Shown here: positions 1 to 16,913 of the stretch, piece after piece
Position numbering within the stretch: position 1 is the stretch's first letter
How the letters are laid out: every line of letters begins with the position of its first letter
Program-made: the position numbers and the translations under genes
Assembly: GCA_003504855.1 (NCBI GenBank)
Contig: DNZD01000335.1
Span: 1-19,816, forward strand
Direction: 5' to 3'
Source of the DNA: Cytophagales bacterium
GTDB taxonomy: Bacteria; Bacteroidota; Bacteroidia; Cytophagales; Cyclobacteriaceae
DNA: 19,816 nucleotides
Notes under the pieces: model-generated
Databases searched by the model: none
Seen by the model: only the letters and a program-made list of their open reading frames with translations
What the model was told of the DNA's origin: nothing

Positions 1-3000
1 CTGTCGCACTCGTGGGCGTATAACTGAAGCTCGTGCCGCTGCAGATCGCCGATGGCGTCAACGTACTGGTCAATACCGGTGTGGGATCTACCGTGATCGT
101 AAAGCTCTTCGTTGTGCCCGTGCAGCCATTGTACACCGGCGTGATCGTGATCGTGGCCGTTACCGGATTCGTTGTCGGGTTCAATGAGGTAAATGAAGGG
201 ATGTTACCTACTCCACTCGCCGCAAGGCCTATCGACGGCGTATCGTTGGTCCAGTTGTACTGCGTGGCAACGCCGCTAAAACTTACGGCCGTCGTCGATG
301 CCCCATTGCACAAGGTCTGGTTCGATACAACATTCACTACCGGAACAGGCTGAACCGTAACCGTAACATTCTGACCATTAGCACATCCGTTAGCAGAGAG
401 AACAAAAGCATAGGTCACTACTACGGGTGAAGAAGTTGTGTTGGTTAGCGTCTCATTAATACCGGCAACCAATCCGCTGCTTCCCGCTTCAGATATTCCA
501 GCAACTGCACTCCGGGTCCATGAATATGATACACCGCCTACGGCACTTGTAGCCGTGTATGAAAAAGTCGCACCACTACAAATAGCAGCAGGAGACGTAG
601 TACTGGAAAGTACCGGCGTCGGGTTAACCGTCACCAACACATTTTCAGCATTATTACAACCATTCGCACTGATGACAAAAGAATAAGCAACTACCAGTGG
701 CGTATTGGTCAGGTTTGTCAGCGTTTCAGCAATAGTCCCTGTCAAACCACTTGAGGCTGCCTCTGAAATTCCAGCTACAACAGCGCGGGACCAAGAGAAG
801 GAAACTCCGGCTGTACCGCTGGTTGCTGCATAATTAAATGTCGTTGCACTACAGGTAGAAACTGCCAGACTACTGCTCAATGCAGGCGTTGGGTTAACAA
901 CCACTACAACATTAGCAGTGGTAGGGTTGGAACAACCATTAGCTGACACACTATAAACGTACGTGACACTTACCGGTGAAGCCGTGGTGTTCGTCAATAT
1001 CTCACTCACCGCTCCGGTGCCCGAGGCAGCACCTTGAGAAATCCCTGCAACAACTGATCGGGACCATGCGAAGGTGGCTCCGGCAGTTGAACTGGTTGGT
1101 GTATAAGCAAACAAAGTACCACTGCAGATTGCCGCTGGTGTTAAGGTACTGGTTAGCACCGGATCAGGCTGTACTGTCACCAGAACATTCTGGCCCGAGT
1201 TGCATCCATTGGCACTCGTGACAAATGCATACGTCACAACAATTGGCGAAGCCGTTGTATTTGTTAATGCTTCAGAAATTGACGTAAATCCACTCGTTGG
1301 TCCGATCGGTGTGATTCCAGCTACCGTTGCCCTGGACCAACTAAGGGTCGCAGCGGGTGTTGCGGATGTGCCGGTATAGTTAAAGGTTGAACCTGAACAA
1401 ATTGCTGCCGGCGACAGTGTACTACTCAGCACCGGGATCGGATTGACCGAGACTACAACATTCTGCGCATTGTTACAACCATTCGCGCTCACAACAAATG
1501 CATACGTCACCGAAATAGGTGACGTCGTTATGTTGTTCAGCGTCTCATTTATCGTTGGTAATAATCCACTGCCTGCACTGTTGCTAATGCCACCAACTAC
1601 AGCGCGTGTCCAGGAAAAAGATGCTCCGGCTGTTGCACTGGTGGCCGTATATGAAAAAGCACTTCCATTGCACAAGGCAGCGCTTAAGGCACTGCTCAAT
1701 TGCGGTGTCGGGTTGACGGGAACAACGACACTAAATGTCGACGGATTGGTGCATCCGTTGGCGGTTAAGGTATAAATGTAAGTCACATTGACCGGAGCAG
1801 TAGTCGTGTTGGTGAGTACTTCACTGATCGCTCCAGTGCCACTACCAGCACCCTGACTAATACCACCAACAACAGCGCGCGTCCATGCAAACGTTGTACC
1901 TGCTGTGGCACTGGTTGGCGCGTAGCTAAAAGATGTTCCACTACAAATACCCGTTGGAGAAAGTGAGCTGGATAACGCAGGCTGAGGGTTTACATTTACC
2001 ACTACATTCTGAACCTGACTACAACCATTCGCAGATGTGGTAAATGCATAGGTAACTGCAATGGGTGCCGCAGTACTATTGCTAAGGGTCTCGGCAATGG
2101 TGTTAGTTCCACTGGTGGGTCCTACTGGCGTAATTCCGGCTATGGTTGCACGGTTCCAGGAGAAAGTCGCACCCGGGGTAACACTGGTTGCCGAGTAGTT
2201 GAAGGCTGAACCACTGCAAACTGCAGCTGGTGATAATCCGCTGGACAACGAGGGGGTCGGGTTAACGACTACGGTAACATTTTCGGCAGTACTGCAACTG
2301 CTGGCTGAAGTAATAAACCGATACACTACGGACACGGGAAGCGCCGTAGTATTGGTCAGGGTCTCAGAAATATTTGCGCTGGCGGCTGAAGATGCGCCCT
2401 CGGCAATACCTAGAACGGCCGACCGAGTCCAGAGAAAAGTAGCACCTCCAGTAGCGCTCGTTGCTGAGTAGCTAAACAAGGTGCCACTGCAAATATCCGC
2501 CGGAGTCAGGGTTGAACTCAGAACCGGATTCGGATTAACGGTTGTCGTGATGGTTCCACTGGTTCCGATACAGCCTGCTGCCGAAGTCACTAACACCTGT
2601 AGCACATCGCCGTTAATTAGTGCAGCATCTGTGTAGGTCGATGAGGCACTGTTCTGAACTGTTACCCCATTCTTTTTGAATTCGTAGTTGGTTGCGGCAG
2701 GTGTGGCCGTAAATACTACCGATGTCCCTGAGCAAATAATGTTATCAGCATCACTACTGACAAGACTGGCGACAGGAACAGGGTTTACCGTCGTTGCAAT
2801 TCCCGAACTAGAAGCAGTGCATCCTGCCGCGTTCGTAACGGTAACGGTAACTGTTTGTCCATTGGTTAAAGCAGCGTTTACATAAGTTGCCGAAGCACTG
2901 TTTTGTACACTAATACCATCCAGAAAAAACTGATAATTAGATCCTCCGCTAGCTGTGAATGTCACCGTTGTACCTGCACAGATTGTATTTGAAGGGGCAT

Positions 3001-3841
3001 CGCTGCTAAGACCGGCGGTTGGATTAGCATTTACGGTGAGTGTTGCAGTAGCACTTGTGGCTGGCGGTGCACAGGTCCCTGAAGCCACTAATCGATATAC
3101 ATATCCTGTTTGAGCGGTCGTTAATGCAGAAATGGTTAGTGTGCCGGTAGTAGCGCCAGAATATTGTCCGCCATTGGTGACGCTTGAAAAACCAGATCCC
3201 TGGTCTTCTTCCCATTGGTAAGTAATGCCAGCACCAGATGCCGAGCCCGTGAATGAAACGGATGTCCCCGCACAACGCACTGCACTTGAAGGACTTGAGA
3301 CAATGGCCGGTTGTTCGATGCTTGAAACAAAACCATAACTTGTTCCTGAACCGCTATTTGCCTGTCCGGCGACCACCAGGGTACCACCGGCAGCACCGGC
3401 TGGTCGCAAAATGTTACCCGATGAGGCAGGCGCGATCGCCTCAATTTGCAGACCACTGATTGTAATGATATCCAATGCAGACGCCGTTGGATTAGCTACC
3501 GTAACTGTTGTGCTAACTGCCAGAGCTGTGTATGAAACTATGGTCAGTTCATTGGCCGTGCTTACTGCACCTCCAGAACCGGGCACGAATTGAAAATTGG
3601 CAGGAGGAACCAGCACAAAAGTCATGTTGGATCCACTTGCGCCAAAATCTCCTACCGAAGTTTCAGCAATCTGAATGTCACTCAGGGTTTGCTGAACGCC
3701 GATACACAGGTTATTGGTGGGATTGGCCGGGGCAACTAGCGTTTGGCCCGCAGCAGAAAGGGATAGAAGGGTAAAAACGGCGAGGAGAATTCCCGTCAGG
3801 TTACTGGAAAAAAGGTATTTGACTCTGTAAAAATCAGGCAT
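1..3841 (-). CDS. giant secreted PKD/Ig-like repeat protein, 3' end off the window
   Basis: This reading frame stays open from the ATG at 3841 to the left edge, giving at least 1280 residues; the C-terminus is missing. Residues 1-32 look like a signal peptide: a basic start, a hydrophobic core, and cleavage near AAG/Q. Residues 33 to about 165 form an N-terminal domain that I do not recognise. An Ig-like domain follows (about 170-272), then two related domains of about 80 residues (275-435), and eight copies of a 91-residue PKD-like domain (436-1163). A different PKD-like domain comes next (from 1164), then the start of another 91-residue copy. Each repeat has a Cys near ICSG and usually one in a late NGC motif. 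The sequence is rich in Thr, Ser, Ala and Val with very few charged residues, as in cell-surface adhesins. In Bacteroidota such proteins are usually exported by the type IX system and end in a sorting domain; that end is not visible here, so T9SS export is inference. Many short plus-strand frames over this region are shadows of it. Confidence 0.9.
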   Translation of the reverse strand, partial: MPDFYRVKYLFSSNLTGILLAVFTLLSLSAAGQTLVAPANPTNNLCIGVQQTLSDIQIAETSVGDFGASGSNMTFVLVPPANFQFVPGSGGAVSTANELTIVSYTALAVSTTVTVANPTASALDIITISGLQIEAIAPASSGNILRPAGAAGGTLVVAGQANSGSGTSYGFVSSIEQPAIVSSPSSAVRCAGTSVSFTGSASGAGITYQWEEDQGSGFSSVTNGGQYSGATTGTLTISALTTAQTGYVYRLVASGTCAPPATSATATLTVNANPTAGLSSDAPSNTICAGTTVTFTASGGSNYQFFLDGISVQNSASATYVNAALTNGQTVTVTVTNAAGCTASSSGIATTVNPVPVASLVSSDADNIICSGTSVVFTATPAATNYEFKKNGVTVQNSASSTYTDAALINGDVLQVLVTSAAGCIGTSGTITTTVNPNPVLSSTLTPADICSGTLFSYSATSATGGATFLWTRSAVLGIAEGASSAASANISETLTNTTALPVSVVYRFITSASSCSTAENVTVVVNPTPSLSSGLSPAAVCSGSAFNYSATSVTPGATFSWNRATIAGITPVGPTSGTNTIAETLSNSTAAPIAVTYAFTTSANGCSQVQNVVVNVNPQPALSSSLSPTGICSGTSFSYAPTSATAGTTFAWTRAVVGGISQGAGSGTGAISEVLTNTTTAPVNVTYIYTLTANGCTNPSTFSVVVPVNPTPQLSSALSAALCNGSAFSYTATSATAGASFSWTRAVVGGISNSAGSGLLPTINETLNNITTSPISVTYAFVVSANGCNNAQNVVVSVNPIPVLSSTLSPAAICSGSTFNYTGTSATPAATLSWSRATVAGITPIGPTSGFTSISEALTNTTASPIVVTYAFVTSANGCNSGQNVLVTVQPDPVLTSTLTPAAICSGTLFAYTPTSSTAGATFAWSRSVVAGISQGAASGTGAVSEILTNTTASPVSVTYVYSVSANGCSNPTTANVVVVVNPTPALSSSLAVSTCSATTFNYAATSGTAGVSFSWSRAVVAGISEAASSGLTGTIAETLTNLTNTPLVVAYSFVISANGCNNAENVLVTVNPTPVLSSTTSPAAICSGATFSYTATSAVGGVSYSWTRSAVAGISEAGSSGLVAGINETLTNTTSSPVVVTYAFVLSANGCANGQNVTVTVQPVPVVNVVSNQTLCNGASTTAVSFSGVATQYNWTNDTPSIGLAASGVGNIPSFTSLNPTTNPVTATITITPVYNGCTGTTKSFTITVDPTPVLTSTLTPSAICSGTSFSYTPTSAT
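353..2536 (-). repeat. eight tandem 91-residue PKD-like domains
   Basis: In-frame protein repeats, each opening with an NPTP-L-SS-like stretch. They start (minus strand) at 2536, 2263, 1990, 1714, 1444, 1171, 895 and 625. Lengths are 91, 91, 92, 90, 91, 92, 90 and 91 residues. Shared features are ICSG near the start, a W-[STN]-R core followed by GI, and an ETLTN-TT-like strand before the ANGC motif. The copies have diverged at DNA level, so this is a domain array rather than a recent DNA repeat. Confidence 0.92.
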
Positions 3842-3918: not shown

Positions 3919-5226
3919 CTATTTGGCCAGTTTACCATCAGAATTAACCTTAATCAGGGTCATTTTCATTTCACCTGCATCGGGCTTGCCAGTCCGCATT
4001 GTTCCCAGGATCAATAACCGTCCGTCAGGCAGCTCCTCGACCTTACCGCAATCATCCAATCCTTCACCTCCGAATACGATGGGTTGAAAGGCGGTGGTAA
4101 CATCGGTATTCCATTTGGTCAGAAGCCAATTCTGGTTGTCGTTAAAACTTCGCTCATCAGTGAGCACATAAAAGCCTGATTGCCGGGACGCATACGAGGA
4201 TGTGTTATTTGGCAACCCATTCCCCAGGTTCAGAGAAAGCGACTTGGGGCTGGTTTGATTGTCTAATGCATTAAAGACGAGTGAATTACGAAGTCTGGCA
4301 ATATAGACATCGCCAGCGTTGGTAGTCCCCGGGGTGGTGTATGTTATTCCAGAAAGGATATAGCCACCACCTGTTTGGGCGGGTGCAATGGCAACGCTGC
4401 TAAGTAACTCATCGGTATTGGGATTCCCGATGAAAAGTACCTGGTTATTGGCGTCCCCATTGGGTCCGAGCGGAAATACCCAGTAGTTAATATCATTGGT
4501 CGGGTGACCAGGGACCAGGCTATTTGAATAACCAAATAAATAGAATTGTGAATTGTTAACCTGAATCACTTTGACAGCGACATCCAGTGTACCTGGCCCC
4601 TGCGTCAATGTCCAGGTTGGCGGATAAACAGTCAGGTCGTTGAAAAACCGGGCATGCAATGCATCACGGGTATCATTCAGGGGTGTACTCCCTGTTGGCT
4701 TGAGGTCAGTATTGCTGGTTGATCCCGAGACGATAAATCCATCATTGGTCAATGAAACCGAAAGCGCATCTTCATCTGTGGCCTGATTTGCTTTGTTCTT
4801 ATAACCAACGAGGGTACTGTCTATTTTAGCCCCATCCAATGTTAGCGTCATCAGCAAGATATCCCTGTCTCCATTGGCCGTGTACGAATTACCAACAACC
4901 ACGATGCGACCATCGGCAGTAAGTTCAATATCCCGTGCCTCTTCATCATATAGTCCTCCAAAGGTCATTTCCTTCAGGACGTGGCCATTGGCATCCAACT
5001 TGACCAGGTACCATTGACTTTTCTTCCCGGTTGGCCTGGTGGTCCCGAACATCATGATGGTACCGTCAGGCAGGACGACGAGGTCATTTCCGGTTTGATC
5101 ACCATCAGCGCCATAAAATTTGATAAAAAAAGAGTTGCTGGGGTCCTCAATTGTAGACGTATTATCGCAAGATGACAGGCCCAATGCCGATAAACTCAGG
5201 AATAGTATGATACCCCGTAGTCTCAT
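3919..5226 (-). CDS. lipoprotein with a predicted beta-propeller
   Basis: 435 residues. The N-terminus has Arg residues, a hydrophobic stretch and the lipobox LSSC, so Cys20 should be lipidated and the protein anchored in the envelope. The mature part repeats a pattern of the type LPDG-hhhhG-T, then a charged or aromatic strand, then a D-NG turn. Examples are LPDGTIMMFG, TADGRIVVVG, TNDGFIVSG and LPDGRLLILG. These are blade-like repeats resembling delta-60 or SBBP-type propellers, so a beta-propeller is likely; no catalytic motif is visible. The ATG shares ATGA with the stop of the upstream barrel gene (4-nt overlap), which suggests translational coupling and a common task. A surface or periplasmic binding role is inference. 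No named family could be assigned with confidence. Confidence 0.85.
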   Translation of the reverse strand: MRLRGIILFLSLSALGLSSCDNTSTIEDPSNSFFIKFYGADGDQTGNDLVVLPDGTIMMFGTTRPTGKKSQWYLVKLDANGHVLKEMTFGGLYDEEARDIELTADGRIVVVGNSYTANGDRDILLMTLTLDGAKIDSTLVGYKNKANQATDEDALSVSLTNDGFIVSGSTSNTDLKPTGSTPLNDTRDALHARFFNDLTVYPPTWTLTQGPGTLDVAVKVIQVNNSQFYLFGYSNSLVPGHPTNDINYWVFPLGPNGDANNQVLFIGNPNTDELLSSVAIAPAQTGGGYILSGITYTTPGTTNAGDVYIARLRNSLVFNALDNQTSPKSLSLNLGNGLPNNTSSYASRQSGFYVLTDERSFNDNQNWLLTKWNTDVTTAFQPIVFGGEGLDDCGKVEELPDGRLLILGTMRTGKPDAGEMKMTLIKVNSDGKLAK

Positions 5227-6377
5227 TTAGTCTTCCCTCCTTCTTCCCTTTGAATCTTACGTGATACACTTTTGGTCCTTGCTTTCTTGATCCGGCGCGG
5301 GTCATAAATCGGGTGGATAAATCCAAACGACAGAGATACATTATCCAACCTGAACAAGTCAGACACAAAAACATACTTTGTCACATTACTGGCAATAAAC
5401 AGATTGGGATTACCAACACCATTGTTCGGGGCATTAGCCGGATCGCCGTAATACAGTTTATTGACGGTTGTCAGATTACTCAAAGCACCCATATACCTTA
5501 AGTCAACATAGATGAAGTCCTTGCCCACTTTGTATTTGATACCTCCACCTATTACAAAAGAGCGATTGAGCCGGTTGTTTTGATAAGTAACGTTTTCACT
5601 GGGACCTTCTGCCAGGATTTGCGATAAATCCGGTTTCACATCTTTGTAGGTAAATGTACTTTTCGAACTAATCAAATAATTCAAAGCCAGGCCTGCGTAA
5701 CCAAATGGTCTTATATTTCCCTGACTTGCTGAGTACTTCAAGTAAAGTGGAAGGTCACCCCAGAGTTGAGATGACAAATGGGTCTGCAGATTGTTTCCAG
5801 CCAACCCATCGATTTCTCTTCGAAATGCCCTTGTACCAAAGTTGGCTTCAATACCTACACTCAGGTTATCGTTGATGTTCCAATCGAGGCCTGCACCTGC
5901 CTGCACATTGACCCGAAGAAAATTATGAATATCCACGGGGTATGGATTCGTACTCATGGAATAGATATTCCGGTAAACGGAGGAGTTTAATCCAATGCGA
6001 AAATGTGGCGTGAAAATGGGGGTTGCGGTAAACTTCTTACTGAGGTAAACTACATCAATGGGGTCCTTTTGCTCATCGGTGACATATTCCGGATCAGCAT
6101 CGAGTAATTTCAGATAGCTATCTTCTGCTGCGATCGGGTCATCGATAATTAAATAGACCTGGCACAACAGTAAATAAGCACGAATGCTCTGTTCCCTGGA
6201 TAGTCCATCACTGAGACACTTTTGAAGCAATGCTGGAATAGCGTAGAAATGCCCAGCTGTGAATTCGGTTTCAGCATGGCTAAGGGTTTGATCACAATCA
6301 CCTGCCTGACCTCGCACCGACAGTGAGCAGGAAACCAAGATTACGCCTGCCAGGAGATATCGAAGCCTGAATACCAT
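5223..6377 (-). CDS. outer-membrane beta-barrel protein with TPR-like N-terminal region
   Basis: 384 residues. A signal peptide spans about residues 1-24. A helical, TPR-like section follows (about 26-105), with AETEF-AGHFYAIPALLQKCL and a second helix pair around YLLLCQVYLIIDDPIAAEDSYLKLL. From about residue 120 to 360, alternating polar/aromatic strands separated by loops (RIGLNSSVYRN, VQAGAGLDWNINDNLSVGIEA, PFGYAGLALNYLI, VSLSFGFIHPIY) resemble the PorT/OMP_b-brl class of small Bacteroidota barrels. The last 24 residues are strongly basic and would lie in the periplasm. It is coupled on both sides: its ATG overlaps the STAND gene stop by 1 nt (TAATG), and its stop overlaps the lipoprotein start by 4 nt. 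It lacks features of the PorP/SprF family that usually accompanies T9SS adhesins. Confidence 0.85.
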   Translation of the reverse strand: MVFRLRYLLAGVILVSCSLSVRGQAGDCDQTLSHAETEFTAGHFYAIPALLQKCLSDGLSREQSIRAYLLLCQVYLIIDDPIAAEDSYLKLLDADPEYVTDEQKDPIDVVYLSKKFTATPIFTPHFRIGLNSSVYRNIYSMSTNPYPVDIHNFLRVNVQAGAGLDWNINDNLSVGIEANFGTRAFRREIDGLAGNNLQTHLSSQLWGDLPLYLKYSASQGNIRPFGYAGLALNYLISSKSTFTYKDVKPDLSQILAEGPSENVTYQNNRLNRSFVIGGGIKYKVGKDFIYVDLRYMGALSNLTTVNKLYYGDPANAPNNGVGNPNLFIASNVTKYVFVSDLFRLDNVSLSFGFIHPIYDPRRIKKARTKSVSRKIQREEGGKTK

Positions 6378-9300
6378 TAAAAGTCCTTAATTAACAGGTT
6401 CTTACAGGTAGCCTCGTAGCCGATATTGTTTCTCACATATATCTCCCATTCTTCCTGGGTCATATTTCTCGACAACTTCGGACAGATTTGATCGGCCACC
6501 ATTTTAGGATCGGTAGGCCACACCCTGATTTCTCCATTGTTACAAGATGCCAGCAGGTAGTCTGAATTATTGGTGAATGAGAGTTTCCAGATGCTTCCGC
6601 CATTGTTATCCATCACGACAGGTAAGTCTTCCTGCTCATGATCAACAACCCACATCTGCAATTTATGGTCAAGACCAGCACTAGCCAGCAGCAGTCCATC
6701 CGGACTAAACTCAACATCAGATACACCCGCGGAGTGTCCGCGCAACTCTTTAATCGATTCGGAGGTAGCGTAATTATACAGCTTCAAGGAACCCTTTACT
6801 TTCCCATCCTTGTCAACAAATTCTGTTCCATACGCAAGTACCGGACGGGTCGGATGGAAAGCCACAGACAGTACCCGGGTCTTATTTACCGACTCATCGA
6901 CCTTCAGTTCAAAAGAATTATCCCGAAGGTTCATGATGATAAGTTGTCCTGAAGCGGCAACACCAGCCAGGGTCGATCCATCCGGACTTATATCAATTGA
7001 TTTCAATTCATAAGGCAGTGCCGCGAGGAGTTTACTCTGGCCGGTAACGGCATTATTAAAGCGTACTGTTCGATCGGATGCGGTCGAGATGAATCCGCTG
7101 TTATCCGGCAGGAATCGAATATCCTTGATTGCTCCACGGTGTCCTTTTATTATTCCAGGTTTGGTATCCGGTTCGTCCAGGTGGAAGATCTGCATCGAAG
7201 AAGAATCACTTCCGTTGATCAGGTATTTTTCATCAGGACTAAGGGCCAGTACCTTATTTGGATACGGGTTGTAGCTGATTAGATTATCTGCTGTGCTCTT
7301 AAGATAATCCCCTTTGAAAATCCGCCCATCGTTACCGGTTGTGTAGAAGGCTGAACTGTTCTTGGACACGGCTAAACCGAACATCTTGTTTTTCAAGTTG
7401 CCCGGTATCTTGATCTGATTGTAATTCGGGTTCTCGGATAGCTTGGCAATAGAATAATATAGACCGATATATACATAAGGATCATACTTATGACCACCAT
7501 ACGTGGAGTGGTACTTGTAGCCCTGAAGGGCCAGCAAACCTGACAAGTCTTTGTCATCTATCGTTGGTGCCTTGGCTTCCATCGACTGAGCCACCGACAA
7601 ATACAATAACCTGTTGGCATCATCGCGTGCACGCTGAGCCTCATTCCTTTGGGCAATTGCATCCTCTTTTGCCGCCGCCTCCAGCTTTTCTGAATTCAAG
7701 GCCTTCTGTTCCTGTTCGATGGCTTTTTGAAGGTTCCGGTCAGCTGCTGCATAAGCCATCTGGGTTTCTCTCAAGGCCTTTTCGATTTGCTCATTGGCCT
7801 TTTTCAATTCTTCTGACTTCTTTTCTGCGATTTGCCGCTGTTTTTTGGCTTCATCAGCTGCCTTTTCAGCAATCTGCTCATTCTCAATTGCCTTTTTTGT
7901 TTGCTTCTCAGCCTCCCGGCGCTGGGTTTCTGCTTCAATGAGTTGGGTAAAACCAAAAATCATGAATATGATGGCAATCACTGCTGCAGTACCCAGGATA
8001 ACCGAGGTAATGCGTGCACGCCGGAGCATTCTCCGTTGCAACATTTCCTGATTCTTGAGTTCGGCCTCATACGTTATCCGGCTTGTGTCCAAAAAGACGA
8101 TGGCACGTTCAAACGCTACATCATATCGCTGCGCCCATAGGCGGTTAGGACGTTGTTTCTTTTGCCAGTTAAGCGCCAATTGCAGATCCGGCGGCCTCCA
8201 CAGCCCTGCTTTGCCCATCTGGTACAAGGCGGCAGCCTCGGATATCCGCTTATACAACTGCGCCGATTCAAACTCTTCATCTACCCAGTTCAACAACCTC
8301 GTCCAGATACGCATCAACGACTCGTGCGAGAGTTCAATGGTTGAGGCACCAGTCAATGTCACATGGCTTCCCGGCATCAGGAAAGAACGGCCGGTCCGAC
8401 GGAAACAATCAACAACCTTAATTACCTCCTCTTCGGTGGTACCGGCAAGTTCAGCAACGAACTTTATTTTGGTAGGGCGGCGAAGGCCCTGATTCTCCTG
8501 ATTTTTTTCAGTAAGGCTCTTGAAGAGCACTTCTGCAATTTCCTTTTCATTGCTGGTTAACTCTTCATATGCCTCATTGGCGTGCAGTGAAAGAGCCTGG
8601 CTGATCCGACCGATGGCGTTATAGTGCCGTATGTCCATCGCCTCACCGGGTTCCCGGTTAGCCGACCAATAATCCCAGGTGCGCATTAAGGCATGTTGCA
8701 TGATTGGCAACTGATCCTGGTGGTCTCCTATATCACTTAATAGCTTCTTTATCAGGCGATTGGTGATCTTTCCACCACCCACAGCCACGGGGCCTTCAAT
8801 GGCTTTCCGCTTCTGTTCCCTGGTCATCTGGGGAACCAGATAATTACTGGTGTTGATGACCTCAGTAAGTCCATGAAATACCGAACACTCCCCGATAAAA
8901 TCGGAACGCAAACTCAGGGCAACGAAAACTGGTAACCGCGTTTGATGAACTGCGTGGATAAGCAGGTTAACGAACTGGATAGATTCGTTAATGTTTTCTT
9001 CTCCTTGTTCTCGGAAACGCAATAACTCCTCGAACTGATCTACCAACAAAAACAAGTTCTCCTGGTTATGCCGTTGCATATATTCAGCCACCTCAACAAG
9101 TCCGTCCTCACGGCTGGTGAGCAAAGACTTAATGATGGCATGCTGAATAGGTCGATCTTCCGGTGTAAGCTTACCAGCTTGTTCCAACTGATGCAGGATA
9201 GCCTCGGTAAGATTTTGAATGGGTGAATTTCCAGGGCGGGTAGTAATCACCTGCCAATTCGGACCTGTCTGGGTCATAAACCCGCCATAGAGCACGGGAA

Positions 9301-9547
9301 CCAGACCGCAATACAATAAGCTGGATTTACCACTACCCGAGTATCCAAGTATGGTCACAGACCTGTTTATGGACAGCTTCTCCAGGATTTCATCAACCTG
9401 GCCTTCTCGTCCAAAAAACAGATGGGATTCCTCAATGCTGAATGGACGCAGTCCCGGGAACGGATTGTATCCCAAAGGATTCAAACCAACCTCCGGTGAA
9501 TGAGCCTCATCCACCAAGTCACCCGTCTGGACGGAGTAATTCAACAT
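6377..9547 (-). CDS. STAND NTPase (nSTAND1-like) with membrane segment, coiled coil and WD40 repeats
   Basis: 1056 residues. The NPFPGLRPF-x-FFGRE signature at about 28-48 is typical of the nSTAND1 family. Walker A is GYSGSGKS at 68-75. Walker B is LFLLVDQFEE at 165-174, with Asp170 and Glu173/174. LSLRSDF (211-217) is the family sensor-like stretch. LSHESLMRIW (407-416) marks the winged-helix end of the switch module. A transmembrane segment (about 513-535) is preceded by RRMLRRAR, so by the positive-inside rule the NTPase is cytoplasmic and the rest periplasmic. A long Glu/Lys/Ala/Gln coiled coil covers about 536-645, and WD40-type blades about 715-1012 (for example LQMWVVD, IRVWPTD). No effector domain precedes the NTPase. 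STAND proteins are ligand-triggered ATP switches; the ligand here is unknown. It is first in a three-gene coupled set with the barrel and the lipoprotein. The 137 nt before it contain no convincing promoter match. Confidence 0.9.
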   Translation of the reverse strand: MLNYSVQTGDLVDEAHSPEVGLNPLGYNPFPGLRPFSIEESHLFFGREGQVDEILEKLSINRSVTILGYSGSGKSSLLYCGLVPVLYGGFMTQTGPNWQVITTRPGNSPIQNLTEAILHQLEQAGKLTPEDRPIQHAIIKSLLTSREDGLVEVAEYMQRHNQENLFLLVDQFEELLRFREQGEENINESIQFVNLLIHAVHQTRLPVFVALSLRSDFIGECSVFHGLTEVINTSNYLVPQMTREQKRKAIEGPVAVGGGKITNRLIKKLLSDIGDHQDQLPIMQHALMRTWDYWSANREPGEAMDIRHYNAIGRISQALSLHANEAYEELTSNEKEIAEVLFKSLTEKNQENQGLRRPTKIKFVAELAGTTEEEVIKVVDCFRRTGRSFLMPGSHVTLTGASTIELSHESLMRIWTRLLNWVDEEFESAQLYKRISEAAALYQMGKAGLWRPPDLQLALNWQKKQRPNRLWAQRYDVAFERAIVFLDTSRITYEAELKNQEMLQRRMLRRARITSVILGTAAVIAIIFMIFGFTQLIEAETQRREAEKQTKKAIENEQIAEKAADEAKKQRQIAEKKSEELKKANEQIEKALRETQMAYAAADRNLQKAIEQEQKALNSEKLEAAAKEDAIAQRNEAQRARDDANRLLYLSVAQSMEAKAPTIDDKDLSGLLALQGYKYHSTYGGHKYDPYVYIGLYYSIAKLSENPNYNQIKIPGNLKNKMFGLAVSKNSSAFYTTGNDGRIFKGDYLKSTADNLISYNPYPNKVLALSPDEKYLINGSDSSSMQIFHLDEPDTKPGIIKGHRGAIKDIRFLPDNSGFISTASDRTVRFNNAVTGQSKLLAALPYELKSIDISPDGSTLAGVAASGQLIIMNLRDNSFELKVDESVNKTRVLSVAFHPTRPVLAYGTEFVDKDGKVKGSLKLYNYATSESIKELRGHSAGVSDVEFSPDGLLLASAGLDHKLQMWVVDHEQEDLPVVMDNNGGSIWKLSFTNNSDYLLASCNNGEIRVWPTDPKMVADQICPKLSRNMTQEEWEIYVRNNIGYEATCKNLLIKDF

Positions 9548-9684
9548 TATTCTACAGAATGAACCAGAAAAGTAAGAAAATAACCATTAACCTGACTCTA
9601 CTCTTGTTTACACTTCAAAAAATACCCCATGAAAGGCCAATACAGCTAACCTAGTTTAAAAAATACCTTGAAAAGTAGCCCATT

Positions 9685-12600
9685 TTAGACATATTCCAAA
9701 ACCTTATCTGCCAGTTTTACATTTTCTGCCAGCAATTCGTAAAGTTGGTCCTTATTGATCTTAAGCAGGATGGTTCGTTCACGTGCCTGCAACTGATTGG
9801 ATTTTGCAAAACCTTGGGGGGCCAACATCTCGCCAAGGAACTGACTTTCAGTGAATTCACCTACCAATTCGCCCTTGTTGTAATAGTCAACCCTCCCCTG
9901 ATATACGATATAGAAGAAATTATTAGCGCGCTCATCCAGGGTGAGGAACTCCGATTCCTTGAGAACAACTTCCTGGGCAATATCTGCCAGAAACGAAAGG
10001 CTTAGCCCAGTTATTCCAAAGAAAGTTGGCATCTGCCCCAGGAACACAACTTTGTCAAAAAGTAATATCTGGTCTTTGTCATCCTGGGCTTTGATGATAG
10101 CATGCATACGCTTCTGGACATCGTAGTTGAGGCGAGTAACATTCGACTCATACAATTCCGGGTCAATCCGATACAGGGACCATGCGGCCATTTCACGAAT
10201 CAATGGATCCGGGTTAAACAGCTGCGCGATCAGGTCGAGCGTGAATTCATCAATCGAGAGTAACCCGATCTGCCGGAGCACACAAGCTTTTGTCCAACGG
10301 TTAGTCTGGGTGTAATCGCGGTTGATCAGAAATTTCAATACCAGTTTTTCATCCAAATCCATCCGCGGGTAGAATATCTCCAGTTTCTTGATACGATCCT
10401 GTTCAGAGATATCATCCAACACCGGAATAACGCGTTCCTTCAACTGCTCGGATAAGAACACGTCGAGCAATTCAATGGCAAATGAGGTTCCCTCCACGGT
10501 ACCGCTTTCAATATTCTCTTTCACCAATTGAATTGAGCGGGTGTCATACAGCATCGCCATTAGCATGTAGACGTGATCGATGTCGTTTCGGATTTCAGCA
10601 CGGATAGCCTCTTTCAATTCTTTCGCAAAGCCATCATTACCGATTTCAGCTATGGCCGACAGGTTCCAACTGATATCTCCGATATCGTTTTCAATGGCAA
10701 ACTTGATCCGGGAAATCTGTGATATCCCCGCCTTGAAACCAGCCCCTCCCATGGCAAGTAAAACACTGGAAACCACCACTTTATCTGGATAATCGATCTT
10801 GTTCCACAACAGGTCTTTTGCCCGCTGTCCGCCAATTCTACCGATGATTTGCACCAGGCGGATCAGAATTTGGGTGCTTTGGCCAGAACGGTAAAATGCA
10901 GAGTCCAACTGGGACAGCGCTTTGCCACCGATCAGTGTTAAGGCATTCATCGCCTGGTTGCTGAACAACGGATTGGCCAGGTTTTCAATTAAGGCCAGTA
11001 TCACTTCGGGGCTATTCTTCTTAATCGCAGTTTTTATGGCAGTTGAACGTACAATGGGTTCACTGTCGGAGAGCAACTCGATCAGAAAAGAGGTGTTGTC
11101 ATCTGCGCTGGAATGAAGTAATAATTCAGCGGCATACTGGCGATCGCCTGCTTCATTGGATCTGGTCAGGCGCAAGATGCGTGTCTTGGTGATATCTCCT
11201 CCGCTATTAATGATGAGTTCCAGTTCGCTTTTGGTGAGCAGGTTTTTTCCGGCCAGGTCCGACTTGGTCCTGTCATATCTGATTACATACCGATCAGAAA
11301 CCGAAAGCCCTTTCATCTCATTCATCTTTCGCTGAGCGAAATCGCGCGTTTCCTCATTATTATTTCTGATGAGCGTGTTCACCCAGGTACCTGTACCTGC
11401 CGGATTGATCTTCTCCAGCAACTTGAATGAAAACACGGCGACACTGGGTGACTCATTGACGAGACGCCCCTCTAATTTCTGGGTGATTTGTCCAAAACCC
11501 ACCTCAAGCTTTTCCATGCTCGTACCCACGGTTTCTAGTTTAGACCTGATTTTTGTTTTGTAACCCGCATAGAGGTTCTTTACAACCATCAGGTATAGCA
11601 TGGACAATATGGTTATGAGAATGGGAAGCCAGACAATCTTGAAAATGGCCAACGAACTCAAGGCAAAAATTAAAACACCTGCTGTAAACCGACCTGATTC
11701 ATTCACAACACCCTCCACTTTTGCCTGGATTCCAAACCGATAGCGGCTATCAAGGGGTATGAATAGCAGTTTGAACATTGGATTCTCCAGAGAGTCGCGA
11801 ATCATGCTATTGAACAGACGAATCAGCGCAACCAACAGGAAGAAATAAATGAATGATGTAGGTGCCATTTCCGGCGTATAGCCAAACACCAAACCGGTTA
11901 TGCTGGCACTGAAGGCAAATATGCCCACCACTACAGGGAGCAGCAGCAAGGCAATCCGAATTCCATAATTGCTTACCACCCGATCATTGACGAATGTCTG
12001 CATGATAAAGCTCAACCCGTAAATACTGGCATTGAAGTACGCAAGAAAGTTGGTCAATTCGCGCTGATTGGGGTACTGTACTTTGATAAGTTCCTGGAAT
12101 GTGAACTGGGCAAACATCAACGTCACCATGGAGATGATAAGAAAGACTGAAAGCAACTTGGTATAAGGTTCCGTGAGCACCTTCACCATTTTAGTCTCCT
12201 TGCGCACGGTGTCATCAAACTCAGCCGGATCATTCTTGATCAGGGGGAATCTGACTGATATGGCAATGAAGTGGGCCGCCGAAATAATGATTGCTATGCA
12301 GCAGATAATCAAATAGTTATCAGTAGCGGGGAATAAACGGGCCGTCAAGGGGATCAACACGTTAGCGAGGATTACGGCGATCAATTGGCCGGTATCGATC
12401 CAGCCGATGATACGCTTGGACTGTTTGAAATTGAATAATCGTCCGAATATCCCCCAGTAACTCAACAGCAGTACCGCATTGATGGGACCGGTCGAACAAA
12501 ACATAAAGAATATAATCGGCTCCTTGTATTCCTGAGGTCCATAGTGATACCCCACATAAAAAAGCGCCGTCAACAATACAATGACAATAATTGATGACGT

Positions 12601-12849
12601 AGTCAGGTTTGAAAACTTAACCTTGTTTTGCGCATACGAGAACAAAAGCGTTGCCACGATACCCAAAAAACCCGAGGTGAGGAAGGCTTTGTCCAGTTCG
12701 TTACCCAGGGTGTTGAGGAAAAGAGATTCAGCAACGACACTGTAAGTCGCGAAGAAAATCCCCATAAAAAATCCGGCACCGAGCATAAGCATAACCTGGT
12801 ACCGTTCTTCCTGACGCACGTTCAGGAAGTCGAAGAGGGAGCTAAACAT
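9685..12849 (-). CDS. TLC-family (ADP/ATP carrier-like) membrane protein fused to HEAT repeats and a cNMP-binding-like domain
   Basis: 1054 residues. The first 425 or so contain about 11-12 hydrophobic segments. Two stretches recall the ATP/ADP translocase (TLC/NTT) superfamily: YWGIFGRLFNFKQSKRIIGW (131-150) and IPLDSRYRFGIQAKVEG (364-380), the latter like the P-RY-AK motif before a late helix. Residues of about 555-910 are helical repeats of HEAT type, with repeated LL-D-P-VR-AI patterns such as LLSDSEPIVRSTAI. Residues 940-1054 resemble a cyclic-nucleotide-binding domain: FFYIVYQGRVDYY, then FLGEML. The usual Arg of the phosphate-binding cassette is not obvious, so it may not bind cNMP. 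The substrate cannot be named: nucleotide exchange is the family archetype, but free-living bacteria carry such fusions with unknown roles. The ATG at 12849 lies just beyond the ompH-like gene's terminator. Confidence 0.82.
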   Translation of the reverse strand: MFSSLFDFLNVRQEERYQVMLMLGAGFFMGIFFATYSVVAESLFLNTLGNELDKAFLTSGFLGIVATLLFSYAQNKVKFSNLTTSSIIVIVLLTALFYVGYHYGPQEYKEPIIFFMFCSTGPINAVLLLSYWGIFGRLFNFKQSKRIIGWIDTGQLIAVILANVLIPLTARLFPATDNYLIICCIAIIISAAHFIAISVRFPLIKNDPAEFDDTVRKETKMVKVLTEPYTKLLSVFLIISMVTLMFAQFTFQELIKVQYPNQRELTNFLAYFNASIYGLSFIMQTFVNDRVVSNYGIRIALLLLPVVVGIFAFSASITGLVFGYTPEMAPTSFIYFFLLVALIRLFNSMIRDSLENPMFKLLFIPLDSRYRFGIQAKVEGVVNESGRFTAGVLIFALSSLAIFKIVWLPILITILSMLYLMVVKNLYAGYKTKIRSKLETVGTSMEKLEVGFGQITQKLEGRLVNESPSVAVFSFKLLEKINPAGTGTWVNTLIRNNNEETRDFAQRKMNEMKGLSVSDRYVIRYDRTKSDLAGKNLLTKSELELIINSGGDITKTRILRLTRSNEAGDRQYAAELLLHSSADDNTSFLIELLSDSEPIVRSTAIKTAIKKNSPEVILALIENLANPLFSNQAMNALTLIGGKALSQLDSAFYRSGQSTQILIRLVQIIGRIGGQRAKDLLWNKIDYPDKVVVSSVLLAMGGAGFKAGISQISRIKFAIENDIGDISWNLSAIAEIGNDGFAKELKEAIRAEIRNDIDHVYMLMAMLYDTRSIQLVKENIESGTVEGTSFAIELLDVFLSEQLKERVIPVLDDISEQDRIKKLEIFYPRMDLDEKLVLKFLINRDYTQTNRWTKACVLRQIGLLSIDEFTLDLIAQLFNPDPLIREMAAWSLYRIDPELYESNVTRLNYDVQKRMHAIIKAQDDKDQILLFDKVVFLGQMPTFFGITGLSLSFLADIAQEVVLKESEFLTLDERANNFFYIVYQGRVDYYNKGELVGEFTESQFLGEMLAPQGFAKSNQLQARERTILLKINKDQLYELLAENVKLADKVLEYV

Positions 12850-12931: not shown

Positions 12932-13552
12932 TTACTTCTTCTTGGAAGCAGTTGAATCCTTCCTGGAGGTCTTAGTGCTTTCCTGTTTGTACTCTTCGTT
13001 CAAACCATTTACCACGTCCTTGCTGATGTCCAATGCGGATTCTCCATACCAGAGATCACTGGCGGCATCAAACTTCATAACAACCTGAATACCCTTTTGC
13101 TGGCTGTAGGTCTTCAGGAATTTGGTAATCCTTGAGTACAGTTCACCACGCAATTTATCCTGGTCGGTCATAATTTCCTGGCTAAGGCTTTCCTGATACA
13201 TCTGCAGGTTTTGACGTTTTTTACCCAGGTCTTCTTCTACCGCACGTGCCTGTCCAATGGTCAGGGTGCTTGCATTGCGCTGATAGGACTCAAATTCGCT
13301 TTGCAGGCCTTGTGCCCTGCTCTTGAGGTCTTGATCAAGGCGTTTGCTCTTCGCCTCCAGGCGATCACTGTTCACCTTGAAATAGTCATAATATTTCAGG
13401 ATGGTATCTGAATTGATATACGCGATTTTCAGATCACCAGGAGCGGTCGCAGAGGCAGGCTGACTAGCTGAAGGTCCGGAAAAATGAAGGTAATACAGGG
13501 CGGCAACCGCTACCAGCAACACTGCACTGAGTATCAGGGGTAAATTTTTCAT
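12932..13552 (-). CDS. OmpH/Skp-family periplasmic chaperone
   Basis: 206 residues. A hydrophobic N-terminal segment (about 4-24) serves as signal or anchor; it is followed by an Ala/Ser/Pro linker. The start of the mature domain, LKIAYINSDTILKYYDYF, is the usual OmpH-family opening. A long charged coiled coil (about 60-140) follows, with Gln/Glu/Lys/Leu heptads, and then VVMKFDAASDLWYGESALDISKDVVNGLN, which returns to the beta part as in Skp. A Lys/Ser-rich tail ends the protein. Skp-type proteins form jellyfish-like trimers that hold unfolded outer-membrane proteins in the periplasm. It is a single gene with its own -7 element and terminator. The retained hydrophobic N-terminus may be an anchor rather than a cleaved signal. 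Confidence 0.9.
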   Translation of the reverse strand: MKNLPLILSAVLLVAVAALYYLHFSGPSASQPASATAPGDLKIAYINSDTILKYYDYFKVNSDRLEAKSKRLDQDLKSRAQGLQSEFESYQRNASTLTIGQARAVEEDLGKKRQNLQMYQESLSQEIMTDQDKLRGELYSRITKFLKTYSQQKGIQVVMKFDAASDLWYGESALDISKDVVNGLNEEYKQESTKTSRKDSTASKKK

Positions 13553-13574
13553 GTTGTAATTTTGACTTGGGCCG

Positions 13575-13582
13575 CAAATATA
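13575..13582 (-). promoter_or_regulatory. TAnnTTTG (-7) element before the OmpH-like gene
   Basis: On the minus strand TATATTTG lies 22 nt before the ATG at 13552. No TTG is found at the expected 17-23 nt upstream; the nearest is about 11 nt away. The call therefore rests on the -7 box alone. Confidence 0.4.
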
Positions 13583-13600
13583 ACGGGATTCGTCAATTTC

Positions 13601-14110
13601 CTATGAATACCATTCAGCGTACATGGGATAATTCCGCGCTGTACGTGCGATTACTTCCGCCATTTCGGGACCTGCATCCTTGATTCGGCGGGCCGGAATG
13701 CCAGCATACAAACTCCCTGGCTCTACCCGGGTACCGGACAGCACGATCGCGCCAGCCGCGATGACAGACCCCTCCCCGATCACGGCATTGTCCATGATGA
13801 TTGCACCCATCCCTATCAGAACATTGTCTTCTATGGTGCACCCGTGAACAATCGCACCATGAGCAATGGAAACATTGTTACCTATAACCGTACAAGCTTT
13901 CTGATAGGTACAATGAATAATAGCGCCATCCTGAATATTGGTTTGGCTGCCGATCGTAATGGAATGAACATCGCCGCGAACCACGGCATTAAACCAGACC
14001 GTACACGAGTCACCCATGATTACCTCACCGACCACCACTGCATTGTCCGCCAGGAAGCAATTGCTGCCCACTACCGGCGACTTACCTCGAACTGTTTTAA
14101 TAATTGCCAT
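13601..14110 (-). CDS. gamma-carbonic-anhydrase-like hexapeptide repeat protein
   Basis: 169 residues, a normal length for the gamma-CA/YrdA/PaaY group. Residues of about 15-138 form a left-handed beta-helix with repeated [IV]-G-x-x-[AV] hexads (NAVVVGEVIMGD, NVSIAHGAIVHG, NVLIGMGAIIMD, GSVIAAGAIVLSG). The three metal-binding His are visible as His66 (IIHCT), His84 and His89 (AHGAIVHGC), and the RGD of the active-site region as Arg45-Asp47. A C-terminal helix (about 141-168) packs along the trimer in known members. The fold and a metal site are well supported. Carbonic anhydrase activity is uncertain, because many members with these residues show other or no measured activity. It is transcribed away from miaB, with its own promoter. 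Confidence 0.92.
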   Translation of the reverse strand: MAIIKTVRGKSPVVGSNCFLADNAVVVGEVIMGDSCTVWFNAVVRGDVHSITIGSQTNIQDGAIIHCTYQKACTVIGNNVSIAHGAIVHGCTIEDNVLIGMGAIIMDNAVIGEGSVIAAGAIVLSGTRVEPGSLYAGIPARRIKDAGPEMAEVIARTARNYPMYAEWYS

Positions 14111-14139
14111 CGACCACTGGTTTTTAAGTTGCTAATTAT

Positions 14140-14169
14140 CAAAACTACAATTATCGATACTGTGAACAA
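14140..14169 (-). promoter_or_regulatory. promoter of the gamma-CA-like gene
   Basis: Minus strand: TTG (14169-14167), 19 nt, then TAGTTTTG (14147-14140). It is a full match to the Bacteroidota pattern, with the ATG 30 nt further on at 14110. It stands back to back with the miaB promoter. Confidence 0.65.
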
Positions 14170-14178
14170 TCTGACAAC

Positions 14179-14211
14179 TTGTCATAGAACCATTTAATTG
14201 TATTAATTTTG
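14179..14211 (+). promoter_or_regulatory. promoter of the miaB operon
   Basis: TTG (14179-14181), 22 nt, then TAATTTTG (14204-14211). Transcription should begin near 14218, just before an AGGGA-like sequence and the ATG at 14230. Confidence 0.6.
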
Positions 14212-14229
14212 CACAGAGCAAGGGAAGAA

Positions 14230-15657
14230 ATGAAGCTAGTATTGCAGGAACTGAAGACTGACCCGACCCCGGCACCTGCCACGACAGGCCAGGGAAGGAA
14301 GATCTATATTGAGAGTTATGGCTGTCAGATGAATTTCTCCGACAGTGAAATTGTGGCCTCAATCCTTAAGAAAGATGGTTTTTTGACCACCTCGGATGTT
14401 AAAGAAGCAGATGTAGTATTGTTGAATACCTGTTCAATCCGTGATAAGGCCGAGCAAACTGTGCGCAACCGCCTTACACACATCCACGGCCTGAAGAAAG
14501 GAAAGCCTGAGTTACTGGTGGGTGTGCTGGGATGCATGGCCGAGCGCCTGAAGTCAAAACTATTGGAGGAAGAAAAGATCGTTGACCTGGTTGCCGGACC
14601 TGATGCGTACCGGGACTTACCCCGGTTGATCGCACAGGTGGATGACGGTGAGCGTGCCGTGAATACGTTTTTGTCGCGTGAGGAGACTTACGGAGATATT
14701 AGTCCGGTGCGTTTGAACAGCAACGGTGTCACTGCATTTGTTTCCATCATGCGAGGTTGCGATAACATGTGCTCCTTTTGTGTGGTACCCTTTACCAGGG
14801 GTCGTGAACGTAGCCGTGACCCGGAGACTATCGTACAGGAAGCAACAGAACTCTTTAATCAAGGTTATAGGGAAGTTACGCTACTCGGGCAAAATGTAGA
14901 TTCTTATAAATGGAGCCCGGAGGAAAACAACAAAGCCCGGCTCGAAAGCAAAACAGTTTCTGCGGTAGTTAACTTTTCACAATTGCTGGAGCGAGTTGCC
15001 CAGGTACATCCGGAGCTCCGAATTCGTTTTTCAACCTCACACCCCAAGGATATTACCGATGACGTTCTTCATGTCATGGCGCGGTATGAGAATATTTGCA
15101 AATACATCCACCTGCCTGCGCAGAGTGGTAACAGCCGCATATTGGAGCGGATGAACCGGGGCTATAGCCGTGAGTGGTACCTGGCCAAGGTGAATCGCAT
15201 TCGTGAAATCCTGGGTGATGATTGCGGTCTTTCGTCAGATATGATCGCCGGGTTTTGCGGTGAGACAGAAGCAGAACACCAGGATACCCTTTCCCTCATG
15301 GACGAGGTGAAGTTTGATTACGCCTATATGTTCATGTATTCCGAGCGTCCTGGAACGCCGGCTGTGAAGAAATTCAGTGATGACGTGCAGGAGGAAGTGA
15401 AGAAACGGAGGCTGGAGGAGATCATTGCAAAACAGAACCGTCATTCGCTGGAACGCAATCAACTGGACATTGGCAAAACATTCACGGTGCTGGTAGAAGG
15501 TGAATCCCGCAGATCGCCCGACTTCCTGCAAGGACGGAACAGCGCTAATAAAGTAGTAATCTTCCCTAAAGAAAATAAAGCCAGGGGAATGTACGTCTCT
15601 GTGTTGGTCGATCGATGTTCGGGCGGAACCCTCTTTGGCACTGTAGTCCCATCATAA
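14230..15657 (+). CDS. miaB: tRNA-2-methylthio-N6-dimethylallyladenosine synthase MiaB
   Basis: 475 residues from the ATG at 14230. This radical-SAM enzyme adds a methylthio group to N6-isopentenyl-A37 of tRNAs. The N-terminal methylthiotransferase domain has the three cluster Cys: Cys32 (SYGCQMNF), Cys68 (NTCSIR) and Cys102 (GCMAER). The radical-SAM motif [10 protein letters not shown] gives Cys177, Cys181 and Cys184. The substrate region STSHPKD and the late LPAQSGN motif are present, and a TRAM domain (about 408-475) ends the protein. A longer reading starting with TTG at 14209 is possible, but that TTG is the last three bases of the -7 promoter box, so it would lie upstream of the transcript. 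ATG 14230, preceded by AGGGA, is preferred. It heads the run with the sigma-54 activator and lptE. Confidence 0.96.
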
Positions 15658-15659
15658 AT

Positions 15660-16913
15660 ATGGCAATTACCGACAACGAAATACAAAGCGTAAAACAACG
15701 ATTTGGGATCATCGGCAATGCGCCGATGCTCAACCATGCGGTGCGCGTAGCGATGCAGGTGGCCACTACCGACATGTCCGTCCTGATTACCGGTGAAAGC
15801 GGATCAGGAAAGGAATCGTTTTCCAAGATAATCCACTCCCTAAGCCCAAGAAAGCATGGTCAGTTCATCGCCATTAACTGCGGTTCAATCCCGGAAGGAA
15901 CTATAGACTCGGAATTATTTGGACATGAGAAAGGCTCCTTCACCGGGGCCCATGAGGCCCGGAAAGGCTATTTTGAGGTGACTAACGGGGGCACCATATT
16001 TCTGGATGAAATTGGTGAAATGCCACTCGGAACCCAGGCGCGGCTGCTCCGCGTGCTGGAAAATGGTGAGTTCATTAAAGTAGGCTCGTCCAAAGTGCTG
16101 AAGACCGATGTCCGGGTTGTGGCAGCGACGAATGTCAACCTGATGAATAAAGTCGAGGAAGGAAAGACCCGCGAAGACCTCTACTACCGTTTGAACAGTG
16201 TTCCGATTTTCGTCCCTCCGCTGCGCGAACGCGGGCGCGATGTAGAACTGTTGTTCAGAAAGTTTGCTTCAGATTTTGCTGAGCGTTATAAAGTCAAGCC
16301 TATAAGCCTGGCTGATGATGCCAAGGAAATTCTCCTGAAGTACCGTTTTCCAGGAAACATTCGTCAGTTGAAAAATCTGGTGGATCAGATGTCCGTGTTG
16401 TCAACCGAAAACAAGATCATCACGGCCGAAGAGTTGAGTACATACCTCCCGCCGGCCCAAACCAATTTGCCAGCACTTTACAAAGAGGGATCAGCTGATT
16501 TATCAGAACGTGAGATCTTATACAAGGTGCTTTTTGACATGCGCAAAGACATGAATGAGTTGAAGCGCATTGTCCTGGAAAATGTTTCCAACCCGGGCCA
16601 TGCAGCACAAATTGTCAAAGAGAATCCGCATTTGTTCGCCGATGTCAATCATGTTGACCGGGTACCCATGCCAGAGCCGGTGACACTTAACCTCAACACC
16701 AGCGCTGATCATGCTCGCGATGAGGTTGAGGAGGTACAGGACATCAGTCATACAGCTGAAGACGACTCCTTGTCAATCGAAAAGAAGGAAAAGGAATTGA
16801 TTATGCGTGCATTGCGCAAGAACAATAACAAACGGAAATATGCGGCACGGGATTTGGGCATATCCGAACGAACCCTTTACCGCAAAATTAAAGAATACCA
16901 GCTTGAAGACTAG
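15660..16913 (+). CDS. sigma-54-dependent activator without receiver domain (AAA+ and Fis-type HTH)
   Basis: 417 residues from ATG 15660, two bases after the miaB stop. An in-frame ATG at 15615 would overlap miaB, and the family normally begins shortly before VKQRFGIIGN. The AAA+ domain has Walker A GESGSGKE (45-52), the sigma-54-contact loop GSFTGA (92-97, a common variant of GAFTGA), Walker B GTIFLDEIGE (111-120), and PLRERGRD (187-194) with the likely arginine fingers. PGNIRQLKN (231-239) closes the module. A low-complexity acidic linker follows (about 340-372), then a Fis-type HTH (about 375-414: KYAARDLGISERTLYRKI). There is no receiver, GAF or PAS domain, so activity must be set by level, by a partner protein or through the linker. 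It remodels RNA polymerase with RpoN at -24/-12 promoters; its targets are unknown. Confidence 0.93.
   Translation: MAITDNEIQSVKQRFGIIGNAPMLNHAVRVAMQVATTDMSVLITGESGSGKESFSKIIHSLSPRKHGQFIAINCGSIPEGTIDSELFGHEKGSFTGAHEARKGYFEVTNGGTIFLDEIGEMPLGTQARLLRVLENGEFIKVGSSKVLKTDVRVVAATNVNLMNKVEEGKTREDLYYRLNSVPIFVPPLRERGRDVELLFRKFASDFAERYKVKPISLADDAKEILLKYRFPGNIRQLKNLVDQMSVLSTENKIITAEELSTYLPPAQTNLPALYKEGSADLSEREILYKVLFDMRKDMNELKRIVLENVSNPGHAAQIVKENPHLFADVNHVDRVPMPEPVTLNLNTSADHARDEVEEVQDISHTAEDDSLSIEKKEKELIMRALRKNNNKRKYAARDLGISERTLYRKIKEYQLED

Follow-up and report, generated by a model that had tools for sequence, protein, structure and literature searches.

The genes for an nSTAND1 ATPase with a transmembrane (TM) segment and a WD40 propeller, for an outer-membrane barrel protein bearing a helical head, and for a propeller lipoprotein form one conserved unit in Cytophagales. 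We encountered this unit on a 19,816-nucleotide stretch of DNA (contig DNZD01000335.1 of assembly GCA_003504855.1, from a Cytophagales bacterium of the family Cyclobacteriaceae), which is called the window below. In our judgement, the locus has about an even chance of being a trans-envelope signalling relay that connects, through the head, a complex at the surface with a switch in the cytoplasm. An initial annotation of the window had singled out the same three genes. Their open reading frames (ORFs) lie at the positions it gave, and the overlaps of 1 and 4 nucleotides that it reported are present in the ORF map, but its argument that overlapping genes are expressed in fixed proportion is weak because the spacing between the genes varies among loci. 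Its three-gene composition holds as a conserved unit, but overlooked a gene for an NTT-HEAT-cNBD protein upstream, a giant gene downstream and the TIR-DUF4062 gene of relatives. The locus has the following parts.

9685 to 12849, minus strand: NTT-HEAT-cNBD protein of 1054 amino acids, first gene of the conserved locus, with Pfam HEAT_2 and cNMP_binding domains
6377 to 9547, minus strand: nSTAND1-TM-coiled coil-WD40 ATPase of 1056 amino acids (PF20703, E value 1.1e-90; WD40)
9323 to 9346, minus strand: Walker A motif of the ATPase gene, residues 68 to 75 (GYSGSGKS), kept in alignment A1
7955 to 8011, minus strand: single TM segment of the ATPase, residues 513 to 531, by hydropathy scan
7613 to 7930, minus strand: charged linker of the ATPase, residues 540 to 645, a coiled coil by eye
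6494 to 7390, minus strand: WD40 propeller of the ATPase gene, residues ~720 to 1018, predicted to be periplasmic
6404 to 6484, minus strand: tail of the ATPase with the paired cysteines C1022 and C1048
5223 to 6377, minus strand: head-barrel outer-membrane protein of 384 amino acids, with a signal-like N terminus and a basic C-terminal tail (PF13568, structure model)
6024 to 6302, minus strand: helical head of the barrel protein, residues 26 to 118, with C28 and C54; five helices in the model
5304 to 6023, minus strand: beta-barrel of the head-barrel protein, residues 119 to 358, by structure model
3919 to 5226, minus strand: delta-60 repeat propeller lipoprotein of 435 amino acids, with predicted lipidation at Cys20 in LSSC (PF17164, TIGR02608)
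2 to 3841, minus strand: giant secreted Ig/PKD repeat protein; the window edge cuts the gene after its first 1280 codons

The order ATPase, barrel, lipoprotein is found in 75 of the 76 testable loci among 81 that were anchored on the ATPase; the other five end too early. These 81 are the window and 80 loci fetched with an ATPase profile (80 of 158 confirmed loci were kept), and their genomes are mostly titled Cyclobacteriaceae, Flammeovirgaceae, Cytophagales, Chryseolinea or Fulvivirga. As an independent anchor, 148 genomes of one order were searched with models of the barrel and the lipoprotein, and the neighbourhoods of head-bearing matches were fetched. Among the 47 head-barrel loci of this survey, an ATPase/WD40 gene is next upstream in 42 and the lipoprotein gene is next downstream in 37, with both neighbours present in 34 loci and neither in two. 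Listings of relatives scored the candidates sharing most words, and genome searches scored part of the candidates in each genome. Thus, the neighbourhood check proposed with the initial annotation finds the barrel and lipoprotein genes adjoining the ATPase gene, and not scattered in related genomes, and we reject a chance gene order on both sets of counts.

STAND ATPases are familiar as switches that control immunity and cell death from the cytoplasm. The window's ATPase scores 305.4 bits against nSTAND1 (PF20703, gathering score 27.1), and both Walker A (GYSGSGKS) and Walker B (LLVDQFEE) are intact in alignment A1 (alignments A1 to A5 drew on 13, 12, 13, 102 and 98 of 120 listed relatives each). 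Among 136 ATPases (135 distinct, as L133 duplicates L025), the Walker A pattern occurs in 135, the exception (L044) being cut at its N terminus, and a strict Walker B pattern occurs in 129. The C-terminal sensor of the protein is made of WD40 repeats, whose profile matches APAF-1. A hydropathy scan gives one TM segment in all 136 proteins, lying between the ATPase and WD40 parts, and lysine and arginine are more numerous on its N-terminal side in 132 (three are ties), in line with the positive-inside pattern. The tail cysteines C1022 and C1048 are both kept in 123 of the 136 (121 by alignment column, L163 and L184 by eye) and both absent in nine, with four truncated ORFs giving no call, and none of the 132 intact proteins clearly retains just one. 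This paired keeping and loss suggests that the cysteines form a disulfide, and therefore that the WD40 tail resides in an oxidizing compartment; the losses cluster in relatives and thus represent few events. These sequence features agree with the initially proposed arrangement of a cytoplasmic NTPase, a single TM segment and a WD40 part beyond it, and a periplasmic WD40 propeller is supported as the best topology. The linker (residues 540 to 645) is the least conserved part of the gene, with 48% identity to L001 versus 84% and 81% for its flanks.

The lipoprotein carries the DUF5122 propeller repeat according to Pfam, and the NCBIfam delta-60 repeat model matches it below its cut-off. Structure models of the two smaller proteins were built on alignments of 103 and 99 sequences. 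In the lipoprotein model, the fold is all-beta and matches the propeller of CylK, as does the sequence profile. The lipobox, LSSC, ends at Cys20, which is invariant in alignments A3 and A5. A lipobox pattern is present in 95 of 116 relatives, and most of the other 21 have a cysteine at the same place by eye. Downstream of the lipoprotein gene, an ORF of at least 120 amino acids on the same strand is found in 69 of 72 loci, although 58 of these ORFs run off the stored DNA. In the window, this giant has PKD_5 in eight stretches and Ig_7 (Pfam). All eight complete giants tested, three of them from the window's clade, end in the type IX sorting domain TIGR04183, which points to export by the type IX system to the cell surface. 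Identity to L001 is 84% for nSTAND1, 81% for WD40, 82% for the head, 64% each for the barrel and the lipoprotein, and 29% for the giant. Divergence thus rises outwards, a pattern that recognition at the surface would predict.

In the model of the barrel protein, a helical head is followed by an OmpA-type barrel and then by a helix at the C terminus. The PorG model NF052316 matches the protein below threshold (30.3 bits, cut-off 130), and we reject PorG or another named type IX component as its identity. Weak Foldseek matches to the barrel model include the Bacteroidota BAM subunits 9n2d_B, 9hjm_F and 9hiv_F (TM-score 0.16 to 0.19).

Besides barrel proteins, a TonB receptor and further secreted proteins contain the head, and C28 and C54 are invariant in the 28 heads of alignment A6. 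The barrel model A2 was built from head-barrel proteins only, and the full model nevertheless hit, over the head alone, proteins of ~870 to 890 amino acids that resemble TonB receptors and proteins adjoining kinases, with E values per genome of 3e-14 to 3e-8. In L091, the head is part of a TonB receptor with a Plug domain. Seven more proteins of 863 to 895 amino acids (L124, L129, L130, L185 to L187 and L191) are candidate TonB receptors by their size and their place after an nSTAND1/WD40 gene. In L182 (5575 to 9228), a head protein directly follows a single protein with three TIR domains, one TM segment, a charged linker and WD40 repeats, which on its domain architecture has TIR in the place of nSTAND1. 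Elsewhere, Ser/Thr kinase genes are just upstream of heads (L125, L126, L128, L131, L188, L189, L192, L193, L198 and L203 to L207), and PEGA domains were confirmed in the kinases of L126, L188, L205 and the L095/L125 locus.

Among loci that had all been fetched for holding a head match, the gene next upstream of the head encodes an nSTAND1/WD40 protein (53) or a kinase (12) in 65 of 78 cases, compared with 4 of 526 other adjacent same-strand gene pairs of the same loci, and two of these four are broken or spurious ORFs. In a first count, kinases of the order set had been called from motifs alone; a single profile search throughout gave identical numbers. The loci of a phylum survey, which was made with the 28-sequence head alignment and had matches in 57 of the 395 genomes searched (among the weaker matches, many are probably chance or generic repeats), give 18 of 25 heads against 2 of 194 control pairs. 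These counts strengthen the view that the head is a mobile domain that would stay just downstream of genes for inner-membrane signalling proteins even where the barrel or the ATPase has been exchanged, and this module swapping is the strongest argument for a relay.

Other genes are seen around variant heads. PP2C-like motifs occur near the kinase and head genes of L125, L126 and L188. Head genes of L180, L181 and L183 (near 8486 to 9571, 8975 to 10060 and 8322 to 9422, respectively), and those of L157 and L158, lie within clusters of contractile-injection type; according to Pfam, L180 contains baseplate OB (Phage_base_V), PAAR and gp25 domains, and L157 a contractile-injection-system tube protein. 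L180, L181 and L183 each have an NTT-HEAT-like gene close to the head gene as well. In loci with the TonB-receptor form (L123, L129, L185, L186, L187 and L191), an NTT-HEAT-type gene, with carrier and HEAT parts both covered, is two genes downstream of the receptor.

The NTT-HEAT-cNBD gene is at most 400 nucleotides upstream of the ATPase gene in 61 of the 81 ATPase-anchored loci. Residues 125 to 469 of its product match the chloroplast ADP/ATP carrier 9j3j (E value 3.9e-10), and this carrier part is assigned by the PDB sequence match only, as Pfam gave no carrier match at an E value of 0.01. In nine Chryseolinea-type loci (L036, L043, L045, L046, L052, L053, L054, L056 and L071), a protein of 114 to 126 amino acids, which we take to be a ribosomal protein L20 look-alike, replaces it upstream of the ATPase.

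A paralogous form of the locus, first met in the same genomes, has the order NTT-HEAT-cNBD, TIR-DUF4062, ATPase, head-barrel, lipoprotein and giant. A TIR-type gene is present at 39 of the 136 ATPase loci (38 were labelled, and L117 was added on checking); models for TIR, HEAT and the tail were built from the loci themselves. The TIR-DUF4062 proteins of relatives are putative NADases. In a tree of nSTAND1 domains, the window belongs to a clade of 82 sequences (81 distinct), none with a TIR gene at the locus, that is nested among TIR-bearing ones; support is low for the window-clade node (0.33) and 1.0 for the node below. Seven of the eight genomes with the window's form that were examined with the barrel model also hold the paralogous form, with a TIR gene in all seven. 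Since the ATPase has no fused effector, the output would come from one or more separate proteins. In the window's clade, where no TIR gene lies at the locus, the likely output is the NTT-HEAT-cNBD carrier or a TIR protein of the paralogous locus.

If the locus is a relay, the giant would be exported by the type IX system and located at the surface with the lipoprotein and the barrel, whose head would hang in the periplasm. The ATPase domain would be cytoplasmic, and its coiled coil and WD40 propeller periplasmic. The head might dock on the propeller and report the state of the surface complex, and an altered contact could be transmitted through the coiled coil and the single TM helix. The nSTAND1 domains would then exchange nucleotide and oligomerize, as other STAND proteins do. 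We infer the contact between head and WD40 propeller, the direction of signalling and the trigger.

More tentatively, the head may serve as the shared plug in a novel class of trans-envelope signalling systems in Bacteroidota, in which head-bearing recognition proteins are wired to several inner-membrane switches. Its carriers would be the barrel with its type IX giant, the TonB receptor, the partner of a contractile injection system and a secreted repeat protein, and the switches would be the nSTAND1 ATPase, the TIR array and the Ser/Thr kinase, reached through a periplasmic propeller or a PEGA domain. The STAND versions would then amount to NLR-like receptors able to sense the cell surface through two membranes. 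If the relay is real, STAND sensing extends across two membranes through a periplasmic sensor tied to an outer-membrane and surface complex, the head is a coupling domain that serves ATPases, TIR arrays and kinases, and many barrel and propeller-lipoprotein genes now called hypothetical gain a function. Relatives retain the probable link from surface to cytoplasm but exchange the switch for other signalling enzymes, which suggests a mode of sensing the environment that has not been described.

Several observations count against a relay. The contact between the head and the WD40 propeller was deduced and not directly observed. The ATPase of L071 (9920 to 13066), which is of the window's type and accounts for the single exception among the 76 testable loci, has unrelated downstream neighbours in place of an adjoining barrel and lipoprotein, and a barrel is present at a paralogous locus of that genome. 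In the barrel-anchored survey, five of the 47 loci have no ATPase call next upstream (in L163, the ATPase lies behind a spurious ORF) and ten have no lipoprotein call, and locus counts in general are not phylogenetically independent. The NTT-HEAT-cNBD gene does not adjoin the ATPase gene in 10 loci with enough upstream DNA, which belong to the Chryseolinea-type group. The tail cysteines are lost in nine proteins, five of them of the TonB-receptor type. Thirteen of the 78 heads have another upstream neighbour, several of the weaker phylum matches (L195, L196 and L199 to L202) have no adjoining signalling gene, and the kinase of L205, one of four scanned, has no TM segment. The domain matches of the TIR-type proteins are weak (among 36 full-length members, Pfam at an E value of 0.01 finds TIR_2 in 20 and DUF4062 in 23), and no glutamate column exceeds 60% in the stretch guessed, without alignment to a solved one, to be the DUF4062 active site. 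The three proteins of the unit have no PADLOC match at an E value of 0.01 (2023 library), on which ground we also reject a known PADLOC defence system. Finally, the same genes also fit ATP-driven work from inside to outside.

Such an inside-out machine, in which nSTAND1 would use ATP to drive the assembly, display or retraction of the giant through the WD40-head contact, with the barrel and lipoprotein as its anchor and nothing being sensed, is in our view unlikely. It would account for the large ORF downstream of the lipoprotein in 69 of 72 loci, which is type IX cargo in the complete examples tested, and anchoring would be a fitting role for a barrel and a lipoprotein that adjoin a surface protein. 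However, heads that follow kinase genes or belong to TonB receptors obey the logic of signalling and not of a motor; a TIR-DUF4062 gene lies within the unit at 39 of 136 loci, and a triple-TIR protein replaces the ATPase in L182.

We give a similarly low probability to surface-triggered defence, in which the same relay would detect phage adsorption or attack by a neighbour, and would cause arrest or killing through a TIR/DUF4062 NADase or through nucleotide leakage by the NTT carrier. Those 39 TIR-DUF4062 genes and the strong outward divergence of the locus proteins are compatible with this explanation. Also, nSTAND1 takes its name from conflict systems (PMC8195603, in part), and a 2026 preprint (PMC13174449, in part) describes DUF4062 as a TIR-like NADase that depletes NAD in antiphage defence and places it beside NACHT and WD40 in TEP1/NWD1. 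Against it, none of the 82 window-clade sequences has the TIR gene at the locus, the three proteins lack a PADLOC match, NADase catalysis by the TIR-DUF4062 proteins of relatives is putative, and the locus looks vertically kept within its group and not patchy. Least probable by far is that the WD40 part is cytoplasmic and the genes are merely co-expressed, without coupling across the envelope: the propeller profile matches APAF-1, and the WD40 domains that APAF-1 and other known STAND proteins carry are cytoplasmic, but we reject this topology given the TM segment between ATPase and WD40 in 136 of 136 proteins (positive-inside in 132), the tail cysteines kept or lost jointly, and the head-gene neighbourhood (65 of 78 versus 4 of 526).

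A signalling relay of this kind has a partial parallel in FecA-FecR, where the N-terminal domain of an outer-membrane TonB receptor passes a signal to a single-TM protein of the inner membrane. The head-TonB receptor variant resembles it, but an ATPase, TIR or kinase takes the place of a sigma/anti-sigma pair; by Pfam, the barrel protein has no STN domain, and none of the five window proteins scanned is a sigma or anti-sigma factor. PorG and OMP_b-brl_2 proteins have a small outer-membrane barrel in common with the protein described here, which adds the head and the basic tail. In nSTAND1/STAND conflict systems (PMC8195603, PMC7159879 and PMC10907252, each in part), a C-terminal sensor is likewise carried by a STAND ATPase, and effector genes are nearby in relatives here. 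Unlike in those systems, the sensor here is predicted beyond a TM segment, is encoded with a barrel, a lipoprotein and a secreted giant, and is without a fused effector. A search for the term "outer membrane" gave no match in PMC8195603 and PMC7159879, and a single one, about other proteins, in PMC10907252. STAND-TIR conflict systems are recognized by an effector domain or gene with the STAND protein, and no TIR gene lies at this locus in the window or its clade.

The order CARD or DUF4062, STAND ATPase and WD40 of APAF-1 and TEP1/NWD1 (PMC13174449, in part) is matched by a trio of effector, STAND ATPase and WD40 in relatives that carry TIR-DUF4062, but here the trio is split between two proteins, WD40 is predicted beyond a TM segment, there are extra envelope partners, and the window has no TIR-DUF4062 gene. 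The antiphage NADase Swarozyc shares DUF4062 with the TIR-DUF4062 gene of relatives; it is activated in the cytoplasm by a phage portal protein, and the same portion of that preprint reports no envelope partners. NTT-HEAT-cNBD proteins have been described (PMC5381601) with the same architecture as our upstream gene, and the portion consulted names no STAND, barrel or secreted partner and does not contain "WD40". Taken singly, nSTAND1, WD40, the barrel, type IX cargo and NTT-HEAT-cNBD are all known, while neither their combination nor the head was found described in the open PubMed Central papers searched, consistent with the initial annotation, which could name no known system of this composition.

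Genes upstream of the locus (12932 to 19815 of the window) are housekeeping by appearance. They include ORFs that, by eye, we presume to be OmpH/Skp-like, MiaB-like, a sigma-54 activator, SecG-like and GroES-like.

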